A stretch of DNA of 27,610 nucleotides, from the IMG/VR virus record IMGVR_UViG_3300006920_000183, positions 1 through 27,610 of that record. One strand, written 5' to 3'. Shown piece by piece: positions 3-2,789 of the stretch. Below the pieces are notes generated by a model. That model made no database searches and had not been told where the DNA came from. It saw only the letters and a list, made by a program, of their open reading frames with translations. The stretch is from a virus. The translations under genes and the position numbers were made by a program. Numbering within the stretch: position 1 is the stretch's first letter; every line of letters starts with the position of its first letter.

Positions 3-1037
3 GACACATTGCCCCTCCAACCAGCAGTCAACGTCCAGCCCGGTGCTCAAACGGGATACCATCTGGTGAGCGGAGATGATGTGCCTACTGGTGGTGCGTA
101 CCACCTCCTGTCTCGTAGCGCATCAGGTATCCCTAAGTTCGCTGTAGGTCAGAAGGCTACTCCACTAGAGACATGCCCTGAATGGATGCAACGTGAGATG
201 AACTGGTCATTCGTACCTGATGAACTCACGTTCCTTAAGACTAAGCGTTGTCTACCCCTAGAGCAGTTGTTCTTCGGGATGGAGTTGGAGGTGTCGACCA
301 AGCTATCACGGCAGGAGATACAGCACATCGTGACCATGATTGAGCCTAAGCAAGAGGCGTTCTTCTTCTTCAAGTCGGACTCCTCTATCGGTGGGCGGTA
401 CGAGGTGCTTACTGAGATCGTGACCATGCCTATGACAGTACGCTATGCTAAGCAAGCATGGTCTACGTTCATGCGTAAGCTGGACAAGCTGTGTAAGGCG
501 AAAGGTGAGTCAATCGGTGACTACTTTGATGTGAGTGATAGGCTGTCCAATGGTCTGCACATCCACCTAAGCAAGGCTGCCTTCGATGCTGGTGAGTACC
601 GGCTTGAGTCGCATAAGAAGCGGTTCATCACAGCGTGGAACCTATGGGATAAGGAATCGCAGGATTTTTACCAGAAAATTTCCAAGCGTATGTCTGCACC
701 TCGTAACTCCACCTACTACCACACTCACCCTAGTATGGATGGGCGTACGTTGGCTCGACGCCTTGCTAATGGACCCGGCATCACGTCACGTAATGACTCA
801 GAGCAGCGTCACTCTACCTGTCACGAGACAAGCAAGACAGTAGAGCTGCGCATCTATCAGGGTGTGTTTAATCTCAATCACATCTTGGCCTGTATTGACG
901 TAACCAAGGCCACCTTCGAGTTCACTCGTGAGTGTCCTATCAGCAAGTTCAATCAATTCTATACCCCTAAGTTCAAGCACTGGCTCTCATGCCAGCCGGG
1001 GTTCAAGCATGCTAAGGAGGCAATGCAATGTGTGTAA
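3..1037 (+). CDS. Amidoligase (COOH-NH2 ligase, Amidoligase_2-like), 5' end cut by window
   Basis: The frame is open to the left edge, so the true start may lie outside; TTG at 9 is the first possible in-window start. Numbered from that TTG, the protein shows the pattern of the Amidoligase_2 family: FGMELEV (89-95, the 'FGxExE' strand), a D-S-S-I segment followed by TEIVTMP (123-141), NGLHIHLS (181-188) and VELRIYQG (278-285, the 'ExR' strand near the C-terminus). The family, an ATP-grasp-like or glutamine synthetase-like fold, is predicted to form amide or peptide bonds from a carboxylate and an amine using ATP. The next two genes are a glutamine amidotransferase and a cyclotransferase-like protein, a combination that fits making and breaking a gamma-glutamyl-type bond. 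The substrate cannot be read from sequence. The gene end overlaps the next start by 10 bases, so translation is likely coupled. Confidence 0.72.
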   Translation, partial: DTLPLQPAVNVQPGAQTGYHLVSGDDVPTGGAYHLLSRSASGIPKFAVGQKATPLETCPEWMQREMNWSFVPDELTFLKTKRCLPLEQLFFGMELEVSTKLSRQEIQHIVTMIEPKQEAFFFFKSDSSIGGRYEVLTEIVTMPMTVRYAKQAWSTFMRKLDKLCKAKGESIGDYFDVSDRLSNGLHIHLSKAAFDAGEYRLESHKKRFITAWNLWDKESQDFYQKISKRMSAPRNSTYYHTHPSMDGRTLARRLANGPGITSRNDSEQRHSTCHETSKTVELRIYQGVFNLNHILACIDVTKATFEFTRECPISKFNQFYTPKFKHWLSCQPGFKHAKEAMQCV

Positions 1038-2140
1038 TTATACACCGCCCACGTAACGTGGAGCTAGAGTTCAGAGACTTCGAGACCTGTGTCATGAACA
1101 ACCCCGACGGCTATGGTTTCTGTGTCCCTGATGGGGATGGGCTACTGTATACCCGTCGATCAGCAGAGACACCCGATCCTAAAGAGCTATGGGATCTACT
1201 GCATGGTGAGTTCAAGAAGGAGGACGTACTGATCCACCTTCGCTACACTACTGCCGGCGATACGGTGGTGCGTAACGCTCACCCCTTCCCTGTTATGGAG
1301 AAGACAAGACATGGTATCGACATGCGTATGATGCATAACGGTACGCTCTCCAAGTTCAAGCCAAACCACACTGCGTCTAACAAGTGGGAGAGTGACACTC
1401 GTGTGTTCACTCGTGAGTTCCTCCGGCCAGTGGTGCAGCGTATGGCCCTAGCTATTGGGTCAGACAACGTGGCAGAGGACCTACTGACTGAGTACCTGAT
1501 CGACGATCAACTCACCGCCTCTTCTGTTGTCACCCTCATGGATGGCAATGGACGGATGACATTCGTCAACGCCCTCGGTAACGGTGGGTTCTTCGATGAC
1601 AAGGGGTGTTACTTCAGTAACAAGTACTCCTTCGACCCGTCACACCGCTCTGTTTCACCCGCTCAGAGCTACAACACAGGGTATGGCAACAGTACGCCTT
1701 CTAAGGTCACCAAATATGATAGCTTCTGGGATGAGGACCATGACTACAATGATTGGCAGAAGGAATCAGCGCCGGTAACACTGGCACCACCAAAGAAGGA
1801 AGGCAAAGGCATGAGTGATACAAATCAAGTAAAGTTCAGCAAAATTTTCAGCGACGAATTCGGTATCGACGGGCTGGAGGACATGCTCACCATCACGGAT
1901 GAGACCATTGATGAACTTGTCAAGGACAAGGAAGCAACCACGTCCTTCATTAAGGAGATGTTGTGCAATGCTTACGAATTGTTTCAGTCAGTGGGTTCAG
2001 CGCAGCGTCAGGCACAGGTGGAGGAGAACTCACGCAAGAAGACAGAGGCTCTCCTCTATGATGCGAACATGCGTATCGCTGCCTCTGCTAAGTGGATTGC
2101 AGATGCTAAGAAGGGGGTACAAGATGGGAAAGCTGCTTGA
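1028..2140 (+). CDS. Class II glutamine amidotransferase with C-terminal extension
   Basis: The protein begins Met-Cys-Val-Ile-Ile. In class II (Ntn-type) amidotransferases Met is removed and Cys2 becomes the nucleophile that frees ammonia from glutamine. Further family marks are the NNPDGYGF segment (about residues 24-31), the IHLRYTTAG strand (69-77), NAHPFP (83-88) and MMHNGT (100-105). A strong AAGGAGG Shine-Dalgarno at 1014-1020 fixes the start, inside the end of the amidoligase gene. The amidotransferase domain seems to end near residue 200; a low-complexity linker follows, then a separate-looking helical segment from residue 262 (see internal start at 1811). The likely role is to supply ammonia, or a glutaminyl group, to the neighbouring amidoligase. 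The synthase half that such domains are often fused to in biosynthetic enzymes (e.g. asparagine synthase) is absent. Confidence 0.8.
   Translation: MCVIIHRPRNVELEFRDFETCVMNNPDGYGFCVPDGDGLLYTRRSAETPDPKELWDLLHGEFKKEDVLIHLRYTTAGDTVVRNAHPFPVMEKTRHGIDMRMMHNGTLSKFKPNHTASNKWESDTRVFTREFLRPVVQRMALAIGSDNVAEDLLTEYLIDDQLTASSVVTLMDGNGRMTFVNALGNGGFFDDKGCYFSNKYSFDPSHRSVSPAQSYNTGYGNSTPSKVTKYDSFWDEDHDYNDWQKESAPVTLAPPKKEGKGMSDTNQVKFSKIFSDEFGIDGLEDMLTITDETIDELVKDKEATTSFIKEMLCNAYELFQSVGSAQRQAQVEENSRKKTEALLYDANMRIAASAKWIADAKKGVQDGKAA
1811..2140 (+). other. Possible internal translation start giving a 109-aa C-terminal product
   Basis: An in-frame ATG at 1811 is preceded by a purine-rich stretch with AAGGAAGG at 1797-1804, in Shine-Dalgarno position. 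The encoded segment opens Met-Ser-Asp-Thr-Asn, which looks like a natural N-terminus, and is acidic and helical, unlike the amidotransferase domain before it. Either two genes have fused in frame, or the phage makes both the full protein and this separate C-terminal piece. Only the sequence context supports this; no function can be assigned to the segment. Confidence 0.35.
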
Positions 2141-2789
2141 TTTTGTACCTCACAAGTACAATAGAGATGGGCTGATTAACATGGTGACTAGGGATGTATG
2201 CTATGGCTGCACCCCTGACCTGCCCAAGCTACGCTACGCTGGGCCACAACAGGTGTTCATCTGGGATGACCTCAAGTCTCAGCTCAAGTTCCAACACGAG
2301 CTAGGTGTGGATCAGGACCATGACTATAAGGTGGAGAACTACAGTGTACACACGAAGGAACACTTCCTCCCCTTCAAGAACGTCAACAGCTACGGCAAGG
2401 AGTTCAACTACTACCTGCCAAAGCACACGACATGGCGGGCTATGATGCAAGGGTGTGAGGGTGTACGTGGTGTCGAGTCAGCACAAGTACAAGGCAGGCT
2501 CATCTCCTGTAGTGTACGTACACTGTGCCTGCTTGATGAGTACTACATCAACGGTACCATGTTCGATCGTATCCTTCAGCCTGTTGTATCATGGAGCAAC
2601 TCAGCTCGTATCACCACGTGGGTGTGGATGTATGTCAACTCGATGGATCAGCTAGGTAAGTATGACTTCCATGAGAAGACACACAACATGTTCGCCGGCA
2701 TCACACCACAGCCTGTGCGTCGTGTTGCTAGTGGTGGTACCACTGCCTTCGAGGTGGATGCAATGAATACAAGTGCACGAGTGGGTTGA
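2124..2789 (+). CDS. Gamma-glutamylcyclotransferase (GGCT/AIG2)-like protein
   Basis: The start is placed at ATG 2124 (221 aa) because AAGGGGG at 2111-2117 is a good ribosome site; the open frame continues upstream only as a shadow of the amidotransferase gene. The pattern recalls the GGCT/AIG2 fold: a first strand QQVFIWDDLKS (42-52), then VQGRLIS (122-128), a leucine-rich helix with LLDEYY (136-141), Y/F-D-R at 146-149 and a late strand TWVWMYV (165-171), matching the usual 'LD..E....Y.R....AwvY' order. The catalytic Glu normally following LDxx is Tyr here, so activity may be altered or carried by Glu139. The family cleaves gamma-glutamyl amines to pyroglutamate. Its place after an amidoligase and a glutaminase supports the call, but similarity by eye is weak. 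Confidence 0.5.
   Translation: MGKLLDFVPHKYNRDGLINMVTRDVCYGCTPDLPKLRYAGPQQVFIWDDLKSQLKFQHELGVDQDHDYKVENYSVHTKEHFLPFKNVNSYGKEFNYYLPKHTTWRAMMQGCEGVRGVESAQVQGRLISCSVRTLCLLDEYYINGTMFDRILQPVVSWSNSARITTWVWMYVNSMDQLGKYDFHEKTHNMFAGITPQPVRRVASGGTTAFEVDAMNTSARVG

Follow-up and report, generated by a model that had tools for sequence, protein, structure and literature searches.

Phages of the RIO-1-like, phiEco32-like and LUZ24-like groups carry a gene set that has been published as a peptidoglycan modification cassette (PMC5498523; PMC11945000). This set comprises genes for a COOH-NH2 ligase, an amidoligase, a class II glutamine amidotransferase (GATase), a RimK-like ATP-grasp enzyme and a gamma-glutamyl cyclotransferase (GGCT). 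The assignment to peptidoglycan reportedly goes back largely to Iyer et al. 2009. Here we analysed a locus with an amidoligase gene, a GATase gene and a GGCT-like gene (GGC2) on the viral record IMGVR_UViG_3300006920_000183. The window comprises the entire record (27,610 bases) and probably represents only part of a phage genome; genes run off the contig at both of its ends. The window cassette very probably belongs to the phiEco32/LUZ24/RIO-1 type: gene types, strand and the site directly upstream of the primase/helicase, among the early/replication genes, are as in those phages. The original prediction, a model's reading of this locus, had proposed an amide-bond modification cassette, which is supported by the gene identities and their linkage. 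It had also proposed that this is an undescribed phage modification system, which is not the case, since the set has already been published (PMC5498523; PMC11945000) and is annotated in LUZ24, phiEco32 and phiM6. New here is the cyclotransferase-like GGC2, which lacks the catalytic residues in all close relatives found and is nearly unchanged in the one pair that could be compared.

The three genes are located next to each other on the plus strand in overlapping frames, as had been predicted: the amidoligase gene (3-1037), whose 5′ end is missing at the contig edge, the GATase gene (1028-2140) and the gene for GGC2 (2124-2789). Amidoligase and GATase frames overlap by 10 nucleotides, GATase and GGC2 frames by 17 nucleotides. 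PADLOC found no match for any of the three proteins. Just downstream follow the genes for a T7-type DNA primase/helicase (2990-4537, plus strand; phrog_239, E value 2e-80), which is the conserved downstream neighbour of the cassette, and for a DNA polymerase. The latter is nearest to the polymerases of the Zobellviridae/Cobavirinae-type roseophages CRP-4, CRP-5 and ICBM2 (44-46% identity), thus the earlier label "T7-like" is right in a broad sense.

The first gene encodes an amidoligase of the Amidoligase_2 type. The conserved G.E.E, D.S, E.vt.P, H.H and vE.R residues of this family (PF12224) are all present in the window protein, in the motifs GMELE, D.S, EIVT.P, GLHIHLS and TVELR. All 13 columns that are invariant across the phage Amidoligase_2 proteins, including the G.E.E, D.S, H.H and E.R motifs, are kept. 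A direct Pfam search with the window protein matched no family, and direct searches of the solved structures with its sequence returned chance-level matches only. The alignment of the window clade was compared by hhalign with a reference set of phage amidoligases, which was anchored by the phiM6 and RHph members, both passing PF12224; this gave a match of 99.9% (E value 2.1e-35). Together with the 13 invariant columns this confirms the predicted identity. As a single query the window amidoligase found no relatives in the uncultured viral contigs, and a first alignment was too divergent to be usable for searching; the relatives were recovered with closer family alignments. Seven uncultured relatives have amidoligases that are 33-37% identical to the window protein and 435-497 amino acids long compared to 344 in the window. 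Therefore, about the first 90-150 residues have been lost at the contig end. An AlphaFold2 model built with only three sequences in the alignment reached a pLDDT of 44 and was unusable for the fold. In the searched contigs of cellular genomes (genome_contigs) no member of this amidoligase family was found, so that they offer no host-encoded operon context.

The second gene encodes a class II (Cys2) GATase that passes the Pfam family GATase_4 (PF13230) with 24.9 bits against a cut-off of 23. Residues C2, R72, N104-G105 and D123 are invariant among the 11 aligned GATase sequences; they correspond to the class II glutamine site of the PurF/GlmS family. In profile searches the best-matching solved structure is 1te5 (E value 4.5e-7). 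The glutaminase domain stands alone and is followed by a variable C-terminal extension in which no synthase domain was recognised, in agreement with the predicted Cys2 amidotransferase that lacks a fused synthase half.

The third protein, GGC2, scores below the threshold of the GGACT Pfam family PF06094 (19.7 bits, cut-off 22.8). An AlphaFold2 model based on 18 sequences has a pLDDT of 80.9, and the top solved matches of this model in Foldseek are human and mouse GGACT, followed by AIG2-like and GGCT proteins. Alignment of the model with VIA-align gave a Z score of 13.3 for 3jud (root-mean-square deviation 3.1 over 130 residues) and of 13.2 for 3jub. As modelled, the fold of GGC2 is the gamma-glutamyl cyclotransferase fold (GGACT/AIG2/GGCT), which bears out the structural part of the earlier description as GGCT-like. 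The active site does not follow it. The acid/base residue of human GGACT is Glu82 (PMC7022552), and the active site is lined by the substrate-binding loop Tyr7-Gly8-Thr9-Leu10 (PMC2954230). At these positions the window protein has Tyr141, in the motif LDEYY, and Trp-Asp-Asp-Leu (WDDL in place of YG(T/S)L). Since the catalytic Glu and the YG loop are both replaced, the chemistry of GGC2 is not that of a gamma-glutamyl cyclotransferase. We therefore consider it likely, judging from sequence, that GGC2 does not cyclise gamma-glutamyl groups, and this protein gives no basis for the proposal that the cassette attaches and removes such a group.

The order amidoligase-GATase-GGC2 was found on seven distinct groups of uncultured viral contigs. 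Absence of such triplets from related phages would have spoken against the original prediction; the recurrence speaks for it. In six of the seven relatives the triplet is preceded by genes for an ATP-grasp ligase and a canonical cyclotransferase, which we call GGC1, GGC2 being the GGCT-fold gene after the GATase. The contig of the seventh (9423_000061) begins at GGC1, the ATP-grasp position being off-contig. In two of the relatives, L047 and L096, the ATP-grasp proteins score with the families RimK and R2K, and the match of GGC1 to PF06094 is strong (E values 4e-17 and 4e-13). A primase gene is located downstream of the triplet in most relatives, about 3.8 kb further on in 38701_000314 and about 3.3 kb in 28383_000121; in the available stretch of 22697_000010 no primase was seen. 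From the complete relatives we infer a cassette of five genes in the order ATP-grasp, GGC1, amidoligase, GATase, GGC2, of which the window most likely has just the 3′ part, the first two genes having probably been lost at the contig edge. The triplet described originally is real, but its incompleteness at the contig edge was overlooked, as was the loss of the catalytic residues in the GGCT-like protein.

The linkage extends beyond these relatives. On 17 contigs, the window and 16 other viral contigs, an amidoligase gene is followed directly by a GATase gene, which speaks strongly against the triplet being a chance neighbourhood. Five of the eight contigs that were compared closely share the overlap of 10 nucleotides between the two genes. 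In the cultured phage C75C1 a single protein (L010, 6001-6897) combines a GATase half, just below the cut-off of PF13230, with a canonical GGCT domain (PF06094 at residues 167-285, E value 3e-21), and an amidoligase gene is located nearby. This fusion is evidence for a link, physical or functional, between the GATase and the GGCT fold. The fused protein is annotated as gamma-glutamyl cyclotransferase only.

The comparison of the two cyclotransferase-like proteins revealed a clean split. All eight GGC2 sequences have Tyr instead of the catalytic Glu and W/Y-D instead of YG, and all seven GGC1 sequences keep both YG(T/S)L and Glu. In the more distant phages, the protein at the GGC2 position has kept the Glu in six of seven cases. 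GGC2 forms one clade in the tree (100/100) and GGC1 is grouped at 90/90, with long branches; the replacement of Glu and YG seems to date from a single early event and to have been maintained ever since. GGC2 and GGC1 are linked only weakly by hhalign (48%, E value 2e-4), and the fold and profile searches settle the fold better. Searches of the phage records by tblastn with the window GGC2 or one GGC2 relative found no match, nor did those with the amidoligase of the relatives; thus, the close relatives are known from uncultured contigs only.

Selection was measured in one pair of close relatives, L017 and L032, and covers recent constraint only. In this pair the GGC2 genes differ by 37 synonymous and 4 non-synonymous changes, corresponding to a ratio of non-synonymous to synonymous rates (dN/dS) of 0.022. 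Primase (0.014) and polymerase (PolA, 0.019) gave ratios close to this; those of GGC1, with only 13 changes, and of the amidoligase were 0.162 and 0.142. The low ratio in this pair and the intact frame in all eight sequences rule out that GGC2 is a decaying pseudogene, and it is probably a maintained non-cyclising subunit. Tyr141, Asp48, Asn143, Thr30, Asp32 and Arg37 are invariant in GGC2 proteins that are otherwise just 22-30% identical to that of the window. Together with the strong purifying selection in the tested pair, these residues are what would be expected if GGC2 were still an enzyme, with Asp48 and with Tyr141 in place of the Glu serving another chemistry. We regard this as unlikely, since neither the known acid/base residue nor the substrate-binding loop has been kept, and the sequence shows no recognisable alternative catalytic set. 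More tentatively, with odds slightly below even, GGC2 may represent a new class, a maintained pseudo-cyclotransferase that serves a phage amidation complex as a subunit for binding, specificity or regulation, next to a separate canonical cyclotransferase in every close relative whose upstream region could be read.

We also asked in which phages the Glu has been lost. Sinorhizobium phage phiM6 and Rhizobium phage RHph_N3_13 each encode two GGCT proteins: a strong canonical one at a distance from the cassette, and a weaker one behind the GATase in which the Glu is retained as well. The idea that the Glu is lost only where a second GGCT exists was rejected, as these two phages keep it in both copies; L121, which has no Glu and for which the search of its 21 kb contig found no second copy, likewise argues against tying the loss to a second GGCT. 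The single-copy phages LUZ24 and phiEco32 each gave a single match to PF06094, the LUZ24 copy with YGTL and LEG and the phiEco32 copy with YGSL and YDRLEG.

Altogether, we propose, with a probability of about 50%, that the window carries the 3′ part of a cassette of the peptidoglycan modification type, with a GATase-fed amidation and a non-cyclising GGC2. The GATase would split glutamine and pass the ammonia to the amidoligase, the product of the overlapping gene, which would use ATP to amidate a carboxylate, analogous to the amidation of peptidoglycan by MurT-GatD. The ATP-grasp enzyme would add an amino acid and GGC1 would trim gamma-glutamyl groups as 5-oxoproline; GGC2 might be a non-cyclising subunit that binds either a partner enzyme or the gamma-glutamyl/amide product. 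The substrate may be the stem peptide of peptidoglycan or a precursor, modified early in infection, which could affect superinfection or lysis. Among the possible targets the stem peptide is the most plausible one, because published cassettes with this composition have been linked to it (PMC5498523; PMC11945000) and because in PSA-HP1 infection the transcription of a related cassette sets in immediately (PMC7082346). Peptidoglycan as the target falls just short of an even chance.

Several observations weigh against this proposal. The published peptidoglycan target is itself a prediction, with no substrate reported for the phage cassettes (PMC5498523; PMC11945000; PMC10580990). The genes for the ATP-grasp enzyme and GGC1 are not on the window contig, and their presence in the window phage is deduced from the relatives. 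Of the 21 primase relatives whose upstream sequence extends over 3.5 kb or more, only three have the cassette, which is therefore accessory. A COOH-NH2 ligase (PF14395) was not found in the records of the seven close relatives, some of which are fragments, and the chemistry may therefore differ from that of LUZ24 and phiEco32; MEP402 and phiM6 have no PF14395 match either, which shows that this ligase is not universal. Finally, the cassette is located beside replication genes and the constraint on GGC2 resembles that on replication proteins, so that it may have a role linked to replication.

The alternative that survives best, rather unlikely in our view, is that the cassette makes or degrades a small gamma-glutamyl or amide metabolite or peptide, for example a nitrogen store or a siderophore-like or glutathione-like compound, and does not act on the wall. 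The enzyme types would suit the synthesis of peptide metabolites, pathways of this kind typically contain linked peptide ligases (PMC4431377), and a secondary-metabolite role has been suggested for genes of mycobacteriophage Marvin (cited in PMC10580990). However, the cassettes of L096 and L047 showed neither an exporter nor a carrier protein nor any other biosynthetic gene, and the set recurs in lytic phages at the same place beside the replication genes. Somewhat less likely still is a role in tagging host or phage proteins by glutamylation or amidation of side chains, in which case GGC1 or GGC2 would remove or read the tag. The upstream ligase of the relatives does score with the RimK and R2K ATP-grasp families, and phage R2K enzymes have been proposed as modifiers of host proteins (PMC4431377; PMC7824862), but the amidation of a carboxylate would better explain the pairing of a class II glutaminase with an amidoligase, and no substrate protein was recognised among the nearby genes. 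Hypermodification of phage DNA or nucleotides with a glutamyl or amide group, DNA being among the targets named originally, would suit the position directly upstream of the primase/helicase and DNA polymerase genes, but is highly improbable, since no hydroxymethylase or base-modifying enzyme was recognised among the scanned proteins of the window (an incomplete genome), the neighbourhood is common to phages that otherwise differ in their DNA metabolism, and a promoter-like site separates cassette and replication genes in the window.

This site (2786-2814, plus strand) overlaps the stop codon of GGC2. It has the sigma-70-like sequence TTGACA-17-TATACT with 11 of 12 consensus matches and is the best one in the scanned region (1-14500), which altogether contains fewer promoter-like sites than shuffled sequences do (7 compared to 13.1). 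From it a new transcript covering the zinc-ribbon and primase genes would begin, which suggests, from the sequence, that the cassette is transcribed separately from the replication genes; L096 has no equivalent at this place. A second promoter-like site with 10 of 12 matches (7457-7485) is located before an open reading frame at 7516. The small zinc-ribbon-like frame between GGC2 and the primase (2773-3042, plus strand; first ATG at 2821) has two CxxC pairs and only weak matches to Pfam zinc ribbons. Similar small frames are located directly before the primase in L096 (8136-8318) and L047.

Further genes of the window include one for a trypsin-like serine protease at the end of the early gene cluster (12986-13741, plus strand; PF13365, E value 4e-20), with a hydrophobic, signal-peptide-like N-terminus. 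Only eight phage records match it in tblastn, six of them from Sulfitobacter CB2047 phages (31% identity), and one of the 13 cassette relatives has a match to this family. A Peptidase_M15_4 protein on the minus strand (15031-15414, E value 3e-13) is a likely endolysin. Four cassette relatives have M15 matches, two of them below the cut-off. The M15 endolysin was considered as a possible cassette partner; only some of the cassette phages have it, and it was not found in LUZ24 or phiEco32, so that nothing was concluded from this. The large chain of a ribonucleotide reductase (10702-12483, plus strand) has a weak match to a B12-dependent insertion domain, and the ribonucleotide reductases of related roseophages are annotated as adenosylcobalamin-dependent. 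The Cobavirinae relative T5S1-k141_653015 (L007, 5413-9219) has CobS/CobT cobaltochelatase annotations in its early region, upstream of the primase, and no annotated amidoligase cassette.

In the published accounts the phage amidoligase/GATase/GGCT cassette rests on prediction, and the clean split into a catalytic and a non-catalytic cyclotransferase offers a handle on the modified group. If the target is the wall, this would explain an early change of the host envelope by some lytic phages; if it is another molecule, a long-repeated annotation falls.

Compared to the described cassettes, the window clade differs in gene order and in its second cyclotransferase-like gene. LUZ24 has the order COOH-NH2 ligase, hypothetical protein, amidoligase, GATase, hypothetical protein, RimK-like enzyme, GGCT, hypothetical protein and primase/helicase, and phiEco32 has the same order with extra small genes. 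In the window clade, the ATP-grasp enzyme and GGC1 stand before the amidoligase, a GGCT-fold gene lacking the catalytic residues follows the GATase, and PF14395 has no match in the seven relatives. Phages phiM6 and RHph_N3_13 share with the window clade the Amidoligase_2 protein, the ATP-grasp enzyme, the GATase, a GGCT-like protein and the primase/helicase. In phiM6 the order is amidoligase, ATP-grasp, GATase, GGCT, two small genes and primase/helicase; both phages differ from the window clade by the ATP-grasp gene between amidoligase and GATase, and also by the Glu kept in the GGCT after the GATase and by an identity of about 20%. Near its cassette, phiM6 (L011, 1083-2225 and 462-1067) encodes one further class II GATase together with a protein predicted to be a peptidase C26 (gamma-glutamyl hydrolase), and RHph_N3_13 carries the same pair. 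The OM43 phages MEP401 and MEP402 (Zobellviridae) and the group of mycobacteriophage Marvin have amidoligase and GATase genes next to each other, a core of two genes only (PMC10580990). In MEP402 this pair is located upstream of the primase, and no GGCT match was found.

For the single proteins, the closest described counterpart of GGC2 is human GGACT (3JUB/3JUC/3JUD), which has the same fold and differs in having Glu82 where GGC2 has Tyr and Tyr7-Gly8 where it has Trp-Asp. MurT-GatD is a glutaminase paired with an ATP-dependent ligase. Its two co-transcribed genes are required for the amidation of the Glu of peptidoglycan (PMC3267633). The comparison with the window concerns the way of working only: MurT is Mur-ligase-like, whereas the ligase of the window is of the Amidoligase_2 type and its glutaminase is a class II GATase.

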